Positions 49,056 through 56,882 of a stretch of DNA of 64,000 nt are shown in pieces. The stretch lies in assembly GCF_017349315.1 (NCBI RefSeq), contig NZ_JAFMPP010000006.1, positions 186,001 through 250,000 of the forward strand, given 5' to 3'. Numbering within the stretch: position 1 is the first letter of the stretch; the number at the start of each line of letters is the position of its first letter. The position numbers and the translations under genes were made by a program. Origin of the DNA: Jiella flava (GTDB lineage Bacteria; Pseudomonadota; Alphaproteobacteria; Rhizobiales; Rhizobiaceae). The notes under the pieces were generated by a model, which ran no database searches, was not told the origin of the DNA, and worked only from the letters and a program-made list of their open reading frames with translations.

Positions 49056-49501
49056 GTGGTGTCAGCCGGCCTGTAAGCCGGGTTCTGTGAGCGGCAGAGC
49101 CGCCCGGCGACCATTCCTCTGGGACGACCCTTGCGAGCCGCCTCTAGCAACCTACCCGAACGACCGGCCCGGAGAGAGGCTGACAGTGGGAGACGATCCC
49201 ATGTCACGTCGTTCCTATTCGGTCTTGCTCCCGGTGGGGTTTACCATGCCGCCGCTGTTGCCAGCGCCGCGGTGGGCTCTTACCCCACCCTTTCACCCTT
49301 ACCCCGCCGACACTTCGGCTCGGTCCCGTCTTGGCGAGGCCGATCCAGCCGAACTGCAGGCGGGGCGGTCTGCTCTCTGTGGCACTTTCCCTAGGGTCAC
49401 CCCCGCCGGACGTTATCCGGCACCGTCTCTCCGTGGAGCCCGGACTTTCCTCCCCCGCCGCCTTTCGGCATCTGACGGGAGCGGTCGCCCGGCCGGCTGA
49501 C
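49056..49501 (-). ncRNA. rnpB: RNase P RNA (bacterial type A)
   Basis: The catalytic RNA that matures tRNA 5' ends. On the minus strand the 5' part has the near-universal P4/J region GAGGAAAGTCCGGGCTCC (49441-49459 region), then CAGAGAGCAGACCGCC, and the 3' part has the conserved AACCCGGCTTACAGGCCGGCTGAC in two halves near 49061-49085. The complementary GTCAGCCGG and CCGGCTGAC sequences at the two ends form helix P1. Length is about 445 bases, slightly longer than in E. coli. The 5' end follows the amidase stop by a few bases, and the exact ends are estimated to within about five bases. Confidence 0.93.
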
Positions 49502-53441: not shown

Positions 53442-53758
53442 ACGCTGCGTTCACAGGCTCAAGCCCGGCCGTCCCCCGCCACATCGACAAAAGCTGGACA
53501 GACCCAGAGGAAGGTTGCATTTATTTGTAATGCACCTTGCGTCAGATGAATCCGTTTCGCTTTCATTCTTTGCCGCTTGAAACGTAAGCTTCCTTGCCTT
53601 TTCGTCGCAGCTGCAGATCGGAAATCGCCCCCGTGACCCCAATCGCCTTACGATCGAATGCTTTGCAGCTTGATCGTCGAGCAATTTTGTATTTTGCGTT
53701 GACGTAACAACTAAATCGTTGTTCTCATGAACAAACTCTATGGGAATCGAAGACCGCC
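53442..53758. other. Intergenic region upstream of luxR
   Basis: About 317 bases, visibly less GC-rich than the genes on its left. The last 60 bases contain two overlapping inverted repeats, listed separately. The ribosome-binding site for luxR is weak (GAAG about 8 bases before the ATG). No gene or terminator was recognised. Confidence 0.5.
53706..53734. promoter_or_regulatory. Two overlapping inverted repeats just upstream of luxR
   Basis: AACAAC-N6-GTTGTT (53706-53723, 18 bp) overlaps TTGTTC-N4-GAACAA (53719-53734, 16 bp). They end 24 bases before the luxR start codon. The 18-bp length is that of LuxR-type operators, but the half-sites do not resemble the classic CTG-N10-CAG form. The shared arm suggests two proteins, or two states of one protein, competing for the site. 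Which regulator binds is not known. Confidence 0.55.
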
Positions 53759-54490
53759 ATGAGTCACTCCAACACGGAAGCGATGTTTCGGTTCGTCGAT
53801 TGCGTGCAACACCTGGAAGATCAGGAGGCGATCGCGAACGAACTGTTTAAGACCGTTCAAGTTTTCGGCTTTTCGAGCTTTGGGATCTCCGGTCTGCCGC
53901 AGCCCGGCGAGTCCATCGAGCCGTACTTCCTGCTGTCGGGGTGGAATCCGGAATGGTTCTCCCGTTACATTTCCCGTGACTATGTCCATGTTGATCCGAT
54001 CATCGCCCGCACGCATCAGTCGGACGAGCCGTTTACCTGGGACGAAGCCTGTCGCGATAAGCCGCTCAGCCGCAAATCGAAGCAGGTGATGAACGAAGCG
54101 ACCGAGTTCGGCATGCACAAGGGCTTCACCGTGCCGATCTATTCCCATGACGGGCTCTCCGCCGTTGTCACCTTCGGCGGCGAGCGCATCGAGTTGCAGG
54201 ATCGCGACCGCGGCGCCTTACACATGATTGCGATCTACGCCCACAGCCAGATCAAGCGCCTCTTGGTCAAGACCAACGCCCTGGACGGTTGTCGGGCGCC
54301 GCTGTCCTCGCGCGAGCGTGAATGCGTGCTGTGGTGCGCCGAAGGCAAGACCAACTGGGAGATCGGCCGCATCACGGGCTTGGCGGAAAAGACCGTCGAA
54401 GCGTATTTGCGTAACGCGTGCTTGAAAGTCGGCGCGATCAATCGGGCCCAGCTCGTGGCCGAAAGTATTCGCCAGCGGCAGATCACCTAA
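53759..54490 (+). CDS. LuxR-family quorum-sensing transcriptional regulator
   Basis: A 243-residue regulator. The N-terminal autoinducer-binding domain keeps the diagnostic residues: W and Y in WFSRY, DP in HVDPI, W in FTWDEA and G in HKGFTVP. The C-terminal LuxR HTH has LSSRERECVLWCAEGKTNWEIG, with the conserved Glu, Leu and Gly positions intact, and VEAYLRNACLKVGA for the recognition helix. It is therefore expected to bind an acyl- (or aryl-) homoserine lactone and DNA. The AHL synthase gene is 832 bases downstream on the same strand. The cognate signal cannot be read from sequence. Confidence 0.93.
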   Translation: MSHSNTEAMFRFVDCVQHLEDQEAIANELFKTVQVFGFSSFGISGLPQPGESIEPYFLLSGWNPEWFSRYISRDYVHVDPIIARTHQSDEPFTWDEACRDKPLSRKSKQVMNEATEFGMHKGFTVPIYSHDGLSAVVTFGGERIELQDRDRGALHMIAIYAHSQIKRLLVKTNALDGCRAPLSSRERECVLWCAEGKTNWEIGRITGLAEKTVEAYLRNACLKVGAINRAQLVAESIRQRQIT

Positions 54491-54640
54491 ATCAATTCCA
54501 ATACAAATTGGAACCGGTTCTGCGCTTGGAATTGCGTTCAAATGAAAGCTCGGGAGATTCTCTCGTTTCGATCTCACGCGGCAACGCTCGAGCCCGTTAG
54601 CGTGGCTCTGGCGCACCATGCATGCCGCGTATCCCCATGC

Positions 54641-54735
54641 AACCCCAAGGACCGACGAGGGTCCGCGCAATCTTTGAACTGACGCATCCGCGTGCCGGCC
54701 GAAAATCGATTGCGATTTTCGGCCCAAAGCCGTGA
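54641..54735 (-). repeat. RIME1-like palindromic repeat, copy E
   Basis: The minus strand has the first palindrome CCGAAAATCG-CAAT-CGATTTTCGG intact, then GGATGCGTCAGTTCAAAG in the spacer position. The second palindrome has been replaced by GGACC-N6-GGTCC. It is less conserved in the spacer than copies B or F. It faces copy F across about 250 bases. Confidence 0.72.
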
Positions 54736-54986
54736 CGCGGCCAGCGCGTCCCCGCTCTTTGCAGTCGGCTCGTCTTGCGCGTGAGCGACGCGCGATGCGT
54801 GCCGTGGCCGCAGCTGGGGCGCCGACGAGTTTGCAATGCCGCAAAGCCGAGAGACCGCCACAGCCGACAACGGCGCTCACGGCGACGTTGCCGTCGGGCA
54901 CCGGCCGCTGCGCTGAAACACCCGGCGCTTGAACAAATTCACCCGGACTTGGCCTTTGCCTTTACTTCGCGTATGCTACATCTGCG

Positions 54987-55095
54987 GCATCGGCCCGAAA
55001 ATTAGAATTGATTATCGGCAAAGCAAGATGCGTCGATTCAAAGGGTGAGAGTGACCTTTCTGCGCCCGATCGGACGCAGGGCGCTCTAATGCGCC
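54987..55095 (+). repeat. RIME1-like palindromic repeat, copy F (full length)
   Basis: About 109 bases, from GCATCGGCCCG to GGCGCTCTAATGCGCC. The first palindrome is partly decayed (CCGAAAATTAGAATTGATTATCGG). The second is nearly perfect (CTGCGCCCGATCGGACGCAG). Length and two-palindrome structure match the rhizobial RIME1 description of about 108 bases. Confidence 0.85.
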
Positions 55096-55322
55096 TGATA
55101 AAGCCGAGATCCACCGCTCGGCAGTGGTTAACGCTGCGCCTGTCAAGCGCTGATCCAAACCTTAGATTCTCGGTCGGCGTGAGCCGAAAGTCCCGACGCC
55201 GCTGCCTTTCTTTAACGTTACGGAATTAAACTTTTCCATTTGTCAATACAGGGAAATCCCGGCATTTGAAAACAGCCATTCTCGGCGCATGAAACTCAAA
55301 GTTTTCTTGGGAGACATGCGTC

Positions 55323-56060
55323 ATGATGAGAATGGTGACGTCCGCCAACATGTCCCGTCACGGGGATACGATGGAACAAGTCTGGAAGTTTCGGCATCGG
55401 CATTTCGTCGACCGCTTCCAATGGCACGCGTTGCGCAAACCCGACGCGCGCGAAATCGATCAGTTCGACGGTGACAACGCCGTTCATCTGCCTTTGGTGC
55501 TCGACGGCATCGTCCGCGGCTATACGCGGCTTCTGCGCACCGACCAGCCGCATCTGTTGTCCGATGTTTATCCCGAGCTCATGGACGGCGCCATCTGGCC
55601 CCGTGCCGACGACATCTTCGAATGGACCCGCTGCGTCGGCGAGCCGGAAATCGCGGACAACAATGGGGTGAGCGCCAACAATCTGGTTTTCGTCGGTGTT
55701 GCCGAGGCGGTTATTGCTCTTGGCCTGCGGGGCCTTATTGTGCAAACTCATCCGAAGTTGGTCACGCGCCTGCTGGAAACCGGCTGGCAGGTCCATCCCC
55801 TGAATGTCCCGCGAATTTACGATGGCAAGCCTCTTGCGGTCATTTTCGCGGTCGCCACCGAAGAAACGATTCGCATCAGCCGGTCGCTCTTTCAAATTGA
55901 TCGACCTATTTTGTCCGTCGAAGCTAATCTTCCGCATCCATCGAAGCCCAGTTCGGAATTTGCTTTTCCTCCCGTTGCAGGTGTGACACATTCTCGCATC
56001 CACGAGGAGACGCAGTCCACCGAGGTCAACGGAAATCCTGCCAATTCGGAGGGGGAGTAA
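55323..56060 (+). CDS. Acyl-homoserine-lactone synthase, LuxI family
   Basis: A 245-residue LuxI-family synthase, which joins SAM to an acyl group to make a homoserine lactone signal. The catalytic residues are present: R24, F28 and W34 (FRHRHFVDRFQW), the Asp pair in EIDQFDGD, R in GYTRLLR, and the Glu and Arg of FEWTRC. The ATG at 55323 places Arg at position 24 exactly as in LuxI, with GGAG 9 bases upstream. The AREIDQFD stretch resembles the RpaI/BjaI branch, some of which use acyl- or aryl-CoA; that is inference. The C-terminal 40 residues extend beyond the usual end of the family. Confidence 0.92.
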   Translation: MMRMVTSANMSRHGDTMEQVWKFRHRHFVDRFQWHALRKPDAREIDQFDGDNAVHLPLVLDGIVRGYTRLLRTDQPHLLSDVYPELMDGAIWPRADDIFEWTRCVGEPEIADNNGVSANNLVFVGVAEAVIALGLRGLIVQTHPKLVTRLLETGWQVHPLNVPRIYDGKPLAVIFAVATEETIRISRSLFQIDRPILSVEANLPHPSKPSSEFAFPPVAGVTHSRIHEETQSTEVNGNPANSEGE

Positions 56061-56063
56061 ACC

Positions 56064-56375
56064 ATGCTCTCCGAGAGTGCCATGCAGTTATCTCCTAGCC
56101 GCGAAGCCGCACATTTTCTCGTCTCTAGCTTGTCTGCGGTCCGCGGAGTCTCCCGTGAAGCGGCAAATATGATCGAGCTTGCTATCTGGCATTGTGACGA
56201 CCGACTGGTGATCCCCGAACGGTCACTTCCAAGACACACGATTAATCGAAATGCACTATTGCATGCTTTGAATTATGCAATTCCTGAGCTAGAGCATGGC
56301 TCTCCAGAAGCCGCCGCCGCGGTTTCTCTGGCAGTCACCATACTGGCGGAGGAAACGGGGCGGCAAAACCAGTAA
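56064..56375 (+). CDS. Unrecognised 103-residue protein coupled to luxI
   Basis: Starts 3 bases after the luxI stop with a strong GGAGG-type ribosome-binding site that lies in the luxI end, so it is almost certainly on the luxI transcript. The product is predicted mostly helical, without signal peptide, membrane helix or cysteine cluster; one Cys sits in IWHCDDRL. I recognise no family. Base composition is lower in GC than the surrounding genome. The XRE gene follows after 11 bases. Possible roles (a modulator of LuxR or LuxI, or a partner of the XRE protein) are speculation from position. Confidence 0.75.
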   Translation: MLSESAMQLSPSREAAHFLVSSLSAVRGVSREAANMIELAIWHCDDRLVIPERSLPRHTINRNALLHALNYAIPELEHGSPEAAAAVSLAVTILAEETGRQNQ

Positions 56376-56386
56376 GATAGTCAAAC

Positions 56387-56755
56387 ATGCGTAACTCCAA
56401 AGCTGCATCTGACATTGATCGCCAAATCGCCGCCCGTATCCGGCTCGCACGCCTCGAAACGGGCATGTCCCAAGAAAAGTTGGCCGAAGCGCTGGGCATC
56501 ACCTTCCAGCAAGTCCAGAAGTACGAGAAAGGCCTGAACCGTATCTCCGCGGGTCGTCTGCGCGAGATCGCCGATACTCTCGGCCGGGAAGTGACTTGGT
56601 TCTTCGAAGAAATGCCGACCTTTGAGGCCTATCCCACGCTGTCGAAGGCCGACCTCCGCATGCTGCGCAATCTCAAGGCGCTGACGCCCGAGACGCGGCG
56701 CGCGATCGACGCCCTACTCGCGTCGCTTGCCCCGGCCACCGAAACGGTCGAATAA
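56387..56755 (+). CDS. XRE-family transcriptional regulator (PraR/SinR-like)
   Basis: A 122-residue helix-turn-helix protein. The HTH covers about residues 14-70 (RIRLARLETGMSQEKLAEALGI and FQQVQKYEKGLNRISAGRL), followed by an EVTWFFEE stretch and a helical C-terminus ending in LKALTPETRRAIDALL. Rhizobial PraR-type regulators, which control quorum sensing and attachment, share this layout, but so do many other alphaproteobacterial XRE proteins. Its place right after luxI and the small gene suggests a role in that circuit. It converges with recJ. Confidence 0.85.
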   Translation: MRNSKAASDIDRQIAARIRLARLETGMSQEKLAEALGITFQQVQKYEKGLNRISAGRLREIADTLGREVTWFFEEMPTFEAYPTLSKADLRMLRNLKALTPETRRAIDALLASLAPATETVE

Positions 56756-56882
56756 AGCCGCGTATTGCACGCGACCTCCCGGTAATCGTCGCCGATCGAA
56801 CTGCGACCGGTGGACGACGATTCAGACAACGCGCAGGCCTCTGCGCACCCTGCGAAGCTGGACGGGCTTCGCATCGTCTTTC

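Follow-up and report, generated by a model that had tools for sequence, protein, structure and literature searches.

A gene of 103 codons, lying between the acyl-homoserine-lactone synthase gene luxI and a gene for an XRE (Cro/CI-type) regulator, was studied in a 64,000-nucleotide stretch of the Jiella flava genome (hereafter the window; the whole genome comprises 4.16 Mb in 49 contigs). We observed that luxI, this small gene and the XRE gene appear, on comparison with relatives, to form one operon-like unit, and that the XRE regulator resembles PraR. We give an even chance to the reading that the locus is a quorum-sensing output module of the CinS/PraR (or MmaP/PraR) logic, in which the small protein would antagonize the XRE regulator. 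With luxR, the genes make up a block of four, all on the forward strand:

53759..54490, + strand: luxR, 243 aa, autoinducer-binding transcription factor (Pfam and PDB relatives)
55323..56060, + strand: luxI, 245 aa, acyl-homoserine-lactone synthase (Pfam Autoind_synth and PDB profile search)
56064..56375, + strand: small gene, 103 aa, proposed anti-repressor of the XRE regulator (lineage-restricted family, purifying selection, low-confidence helical model)
56387..56755, + strand: XRE regulator gene, 122 aa, PraR-type paralogue (HTH_3, conservation, PraR alignment)

The block is bounded upstream by a lytic transglycosylase gene (position 53442 is the first base past its stop) and downstream by convergent recJ, both named from sequence reading and not from a family search.

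In the window the small gene starts 3 nt after luxI, and the XRE gene 11 nt after the small gene. The corresponding gaps were -4 to +30 nt in five relatives and 12-27 nt in eight relatives, and in three of these genomes (L002, L004, L005) luxI and the small gene overlapped by 4 nt. The operon layout proposed for these three genes in the first-pass annotation is supported by this close spacing. The gene run without a break, as described there, does not extend to luxR, which lies 832 nt from luxI (349-490 nt in five relatives); the long distance is partly due to a dispersed repeat that sits between the two genes.

We compared the locus across a genus group of ten genomes (including that of the window), with records labelled Jiella, Aurantimonas and Fulvimarina; the named relatives carrying the small gene were three Jiella records, one Aurantimonas and one Fulvimarina. 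The full luxR-luxI-small-XRE block was present beside recJ, in the same order, in six of the ten. The XRE gene stood beside recJ in every one of them (the nine other copies being 91-94% identical to that of the window), and in the sister genus (G027) it was found (82%) between the transglycosylase gene and recJ. The block had been thought to interrupt a conserved gene order; in fact the adjacency of XRE and recJ is itself the conserved order. The small gene was intact in nine of the ten genomes (the L002 and L004 copies end five codons early), directly before XRE in all nine. Looking for luxI followed by homologues of both genes, as had been suggested, gave a mixed answer, since XRE had no luxI neighbour in four of the ten genomes, nor had three of the nine intact small genes. 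These three genomes (G199, G201 and G202) retained the small gene and XRE intact, with luxR and luxI missing at the site; G201 and G202 had a different luxI elsewhere in the genome, and no LuxI match was found in the assembly of G199 (97% complete). G122 had an intact XRE gene and a decayed small gene, which scored 51 bits in one frame and contained stops. G027 had at most a short relic of the small gene (10.0 bits, versus 6.0 for the best of 1500 shuffled frames).

The ratio of nonsynonymous to synonymous substitution (dN/dS), as simple pairwise estimates with some synonymous distances near saturation, was 0.12-0.23 for the small gene against the window sequence and 0.07-0.17 among G199, G201 and G202; for XRE it was 0.02-0.06 against the window sequence. 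The small gene is therefore a genuine protein gene, being under purifying selection also where luxI is absent. As XRE is found throughout the genus group and in the sister genus, and the small gene in nine of ten genomes, under purifying selection even in the three without luxR and luxI at the site, the small gene and XRE make up the core, judged from this distribution, and luxR/luxI are the part that varies.

The XRE protein scored 54.7 bits with HTH_3 and aligned over its full length with PraR, with a near-identical helix-turn-helix core. It was 44% identical to the PraR of its own genome (58% over residues 4-81) and 36-49% identical to five PraR-type proteins, and on these alignments it classes as a PraR-type paralogue. 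The PraR orthologue of the same genome is a separate gene (L008), upstream of metK (a methionine adenosyltransferase-like gene). We also considered the XRE gene itself as the PraR/PhrR orthologue, and rejected this on its neighbourhood, as it adjoins recJ and not metK. XRE matches at E <= 0.001 were present in 119 of 121 family genomes sampled.

This paralogy is of interest since PraR-type regulators are the class bound by CinS and MmaP, small proteins co-transcribed with luxI-type genes (PMC4149787, PMC10790750). In Rhizobium leguminosarum, CinS (67 residues; PMC3356288) is co-transcribed with cinI, and binds and inactivates PraR (PMC4149787). The CinR-CinI-CinS/PraR system resembles the window in that a small protein, encoded after a luxI-type synthase and expressed with it, antagonizes a PraR-type XRE repressor; for the window the co-expression and the antagonism are our proposal. 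It differs in that praR is followed by metK and a tRNA-methyltransferase gene (PMC10790750) and not by luxI, whereas the candidate target in the window is encoded directly downstream and is a paralogue, not a PraR orthologue; the window protein is also longer, and no homology to CinS was detected. In Methylobacterium fujisawaense, MmaP is co-transcribed with mmaI, the gene immediately upstream, and binds PraR in a pull-down (PMC10790750). It is of 59 aa, and praR lies elsewhere, with the same two genes (metK and the tRNA-methyltransferase gene) downstream. For Caulobacter, a study of XRE proteins states that a CinS-like protein was not found by BLAST, and suggests that different anti-repressors may act (PMC10688885). 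The SinI-SinR pair of Bacillus subtilis also consists of a small anti-repressor and a helix-turn-helix repressor (PMC4149787); it differs in that the operon has no quorum-sensing synthase, and the small protein of the window had no SinI match in Pfam. Like CinS, the small gene lies directly downstream of luxI. The small protein cannot be placed in the CinS family by sequence. In the Bacillus pair sinI adjoins sinR, which is provided with a separate promoter.

The small protein is predicted to be all-helical, with an isoelectric point of 5.7. Nothing above cut-off was found for it in Pfam or NCBIfam, a fold search with its low-confidence model gave no match at E <= 0.001, and a plasmid search gave none at E <= 1. 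The lone match among PDB sequences (E 0.97, a designed protein) was taken as chance. Strong matches to a profile of the small protein all lay within the genus: they came from 8 of the 394 genomes in a family sample, counting the decayed copy of G122, and from 2 of 397 genomes in an order sample (the window's own and G020). Of eight weak matches, six came from the family genomes and two from those of the order, and the one in G088 alone had an XRE neighbour; the other seven, all outside the genus and with no XRE match within about 1.5 kb on each side, were treated as chance. The G088 protein is a distant homologue (20.7 bits, versus 6.5 for the best of 2600 shuffled sequences). Its locus, in another genus (L015, 492-2038), comprises a GNAT-family-like gene, a 91-codon open reading frame (ORF), the distant small-gene homologue, and an overlapping XRE gene, without luxI.

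The two signalling proteins are full length, and the residues that the first-pass annotation had called intact are indeed conserved in both. LuxR scored 107.8 bits with Autoind_bind and 59.3 bits with GerE (both above the curated Pfam cut-offs), its PDB relatives were CviR, TraR and LasR, and its residues W66, Y70, D79 and W94 aligned with W57, Y61, D70 and W85 of TraR, which we take (numbering included) to be ligand-pocket residues. LuxI scored 53.5 bits with Autoind_synth (cut-off 24), and R24, F28, W34, E44, D46, D49, R69, E100 and R103, to which we presume catalytic roles, were invariant among nine aligned synthases. The closest solved structures to the LuxI profile were BjaI/RpaI/MesI-type synthases (E 2e-29 to 8e-29), the similarity being distant only. 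By its domains and pocket residues LuxR classes as a predicted acyl-homoserine-lactone receptor of the LuxR type, and by its domain and conserved catalytic residues LuxI as a predicted synthase of the LuxI type.

Three segments of conserved DNA were found in the block:

53697..53723, + strand: conserved sequence upstream of luxR, CGTTGACG..AATCGTTGTT, probable luxR promoter region (footprint in 6 of 6 lux-bearing genomes)
55242..55262, + strand: candidate lux box GTCAATACnGGGAAAtCCC, with the dyad GGGA-AA-TCCC, 61-81 nt before the luxI start
56266..56296, + strand: conserved DNA inside the small gene, CTTTGA(A/T)TTA(T/C)GCAATTCCTGAG(C/T)TAGAGCA, 31 nt, proposed XRE promoter (retained, in whole or part, in copies that have lost the reading frame)

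The consensus upstream of luxI, GTCAATACnGGGA(A/G)A(C/T)(C/T)CC, was kept in all six lux-bearing genomes. In the window's own genome it had one exact match, at luxI, and with three mismatches four matches, versus four in the control. The lone exact match fits the luxI operon as a main direct output; other LuxR sites may differ from this consensus and would then be missed, as it was built from luxI upstream regions alone. The segment inside the small gene carried one change in the decayed G122 copy, and was partly kept in G027, where the ORF is gone. Invariant codons of the small gene clustered at this segment (permutation p 0.0014, and 0.012 for codons 66-78 alone, values that ignore the relatedness of the sequences). 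The segment may be a separate promoter for XRE.

We infer the following mechanism, which concerns transcription, promoter activity, binding and targets, from the observed layout, PraR paralogy, co-retention of the pair and internal element. The XRE protein would be expressed basally from a promoter of its own and would control target genes. As the LuxI-made signal accumulates, LuxR with its signal would switch on luxI and the small gene; the small acidic helical protein would then outnumber and bind XRE, and the state of the XRE targets would change. Control of this pair would be different in the clade of G199, G201 and G202. This reading is favoured by the layout and spacing in six genomes, by the kinship of XRE with the class that CinS and MmaP bind, and by the fact that all nine intact small genes of the genus precede XRE, as does the G088 homologue in the absence of luxI. 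It is further favoured by purifying selection on the small gene without luxR/luxI, by the retention of the internal element in the G122 pseudogene, and by the grouping of luxI, a short ORF and a PraR-type XRE gene in two other genomes (G042 and G012, described below).

Several observations weigh against it. The small gene is kept without luxR/luxI in three genomes and is therefore not tied to quorum sensing, and G122 and G027 have kept XRE in the absence of an intact small gene. Both structure models were of low confidence (mean pLDDT, the predicted local distance difference test, about 61). The small protein showed no detectable homology to a CinS-like set (hhalign probability 0.2%, E 0.32), a small, mixed set assembled by eye that a remote relation could escape. 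A sigma-70 consensus scan called no site in the region, the segment inside the small gene included, nor is TTGCAA, the motif of PraR, conserved at the locus. Binding between the small protein and XRE is itself a proposal, reached by inference. A PraR-type operator at the putative XRE promoter (TTGCAA or ATTGCAT-N10-ATGCAAT) was rejected, as the first motif is unconserved and some genomes lack the left arm of the inverted repeat.

The alternative that survives best, and that we still consider unlikely, is that these genes are neighbours without a shared mechanism, with XRE autonomous beside recJ, the small gene in a separate role and luxR/luxI upstream by happenstance. The XRE genes without an intact small gene, and the far lower dN/dS of XRE, agree with this; the invariable position of intact small genes before XRE, seen again in G088, does not.

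It is improbable that the small protein acts on the quorum-sensing proteins themselves, whether as an anti-activator or as a modulator (a TraM-like action on LuxR). The 4-nt overlap with luxI in three relatives fits such a role, and TraM is of similar length; purifying selection in the three genomes without luxR/luxI at the site speaks against it, as does the lack of any LuxI match in G199. Quite improbable, too, is a feedback brake on signal production, with XRE repressing the luxR/luxI promoters and the small protein releasing it. Adjacent regulators often control their own operon, and PraR of R. leguminosarum represses its own gene and luxR-type genes (PMC4149787). No conserved PraR motif was seen upstream of luxR or luxI, though the motif is that of PraR and may not be that of this XRE, and the small-XRE pair persists without luxR/luxI. 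A toxin-antitoxin pair drawn into the luxI operon, with the toxin gene first as in HigBA, fits in gene order and size and in weak XRE matches to antitoxin models (all below cut-offs), but is very improbable, as the small protein has no toxin family match in Pfam or NCBIfam (anti-phage and phage libraries lay outside this search) and no recognisable toxin domain of the HigBA-like class, the chromosomal place is fixed, and XRE remains 82-93% identical where the small gene is lost, unlike a free antitoxin.

To follow the history of the locus, a tree was built from five neighbouring proteins, with G027 as the outgroup. G122 branched first (support 1.0) and the window second (0.98); G199, G201 and G202 formed a clade (1.0) whose exact sister was poorly supported (0.54). 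By this branching order the clade is nested among luxR/luxI-bearing genomes, and it probably lost luxR and luxI. The LuxI and LuxR gene trees had weak support (0.59-0.68), except for the L002-L004 pair. Two histories fit: either luxR/luxI were ancestral and were lost three times, or they were acquired once G122 had split off and were lost a single time, the latter needing fewer events. Under either, the small gene and XRE are the older or more stable unit. In the two lux-less genomes tested, G199 and G202, blastn found 67-84 nt of DNA homologous to the luxR upstream region, at 75%, with the match stopping close to where luxR begins. A luxR relic in G199/G201/G202 was rejected at the protein level, the homology being to DNA upstream of luxR only. 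Inspection by eye had suggested a relic of the luxI C-terminus in G122, which was likewise rejected (-0.9 bits, under the best shuffled controls).

The GC content of the block is lower than that of its neighbours, as had been claimed: 0.593 for luxR, 0.575 for luxI, 0.538 for the small gene and 0.607 for XRE, versus 0.641 for the window as a whole and 0.639-0.667 among six nearby genes. We compared five genomes in this respect (the window, G020, L002, L003 and L005; L004 and the lux-less genomes were left out). The small gene and XRE were under the locus mean in all five; luxR/luxI had 0.64-0.68 in three of the four relatives (L002, L003, L005) and 0.59/0.63 in G020. Since luxR/luxI composition is ordinary in those three, the low GC does not show recent transfer. 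Of the earlier suggestion of acquisition or fast evolution, the second part stands, in that luxR, luxI and the small gene diverge faster than XRE and recJ; acquisition, as argued from low GC, does not.

Similar layouts were sought at 77 luxI loci (30 from a family search, 39 others drawn mostly from the weaker matches of that search, four elsewhere in the genus genomes and four on plasmids). A PraR-type XRE gene lay close to luxI at two, in two other genera: G042 (L152) has luxI, a 70-aa ORF and a PraR-type XRE gene on the same strand, and G012 (L153) has luxI, a 61-aa ORF and a convergent PraR gene. Random placement would give about 0.09-0.15 such loci among the 73 outside the genus (p 0.004-0.011, a rough estimate). 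The G042 and G012 small proteins are unlike in sequence. The 70-aa protein of G042 was tried as a homologue of the window's small protein and is unproven, scoring 4.3 bits with the genus profile (within the shuffled range) and 9.1 only when G088 was added. Short ORFs touching luxI recur, with unlike sequences; a mechanical count found short ORFs at 24 of the 73 loci, many of them chance frames. Other luxI genes of the family, in G122 (L021), G027 (L148) and G193 (L151), each have an overlapping ORF of 69-81 aa after them; by eye the first two are closely alike, and the third resembles both. One R. leguminosarum plasmid carries a CinI-type gene (the type being our own reading) overlapped by an ORF of 67 aa, a size equal to that stated for CinS (PMC3356288); such an ORF (L179) was included in the CinS-like set, taken as CinS by its size and place.

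Two further features belong to the block:

54981..55100, strand not assigned: dispersed repeat element between luxR and luxI (genome copies)
56851..56873, + strand: candidate intrinsic terminator of the block, before convergent recJ (9-pair stem, T-rich tail)

The repeat, of about 105 bp, had 39 other long copies at 84-91% on many contigs (40 of 257 candidates scored). As RNA it folded better than shuffles (z -3.2), and it had no Rfam match at the gathering score. The terminator scan gave 8 candidates in the region, versus 4.2 +/- 2.5 in shuffles. The sole Rfam match in the window was a class A RNase P RNA (49058-49500, - strand).

A literature search found nothing on this locus in Jiella or Aurantimonas, subscription journals being mostly outside its reach; two small proteins encoded behind luxI and acting on a PraR-type regulator, CinS and MmaP, were already known in the literature searched. 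We propose, tentatively and at something short of an even chance, that the small protein founds a new anti-repressor family unlike CinS, encoded beside its own PraR-type target, that the pair predates the quorum link, with luxR/luxI placed upstream or lost, and that similar layouts arose repeatedly in Rhizobiaceae with different small proteins. The window would then hold an anti-repressor different from CinS, encoded beside its own target, and cell-density control would have been plugged into a ready-made repressor switch. A self-contained cassette of luxI, anti-repressor and repressor would make the known logic testable in a single clonable locus. Natural controls are available among close relatives, some of which have luxR/luxI and some not, and the repeated reinvention of this wiring would be apparent from dissimilar small proteins encoded after luxI.

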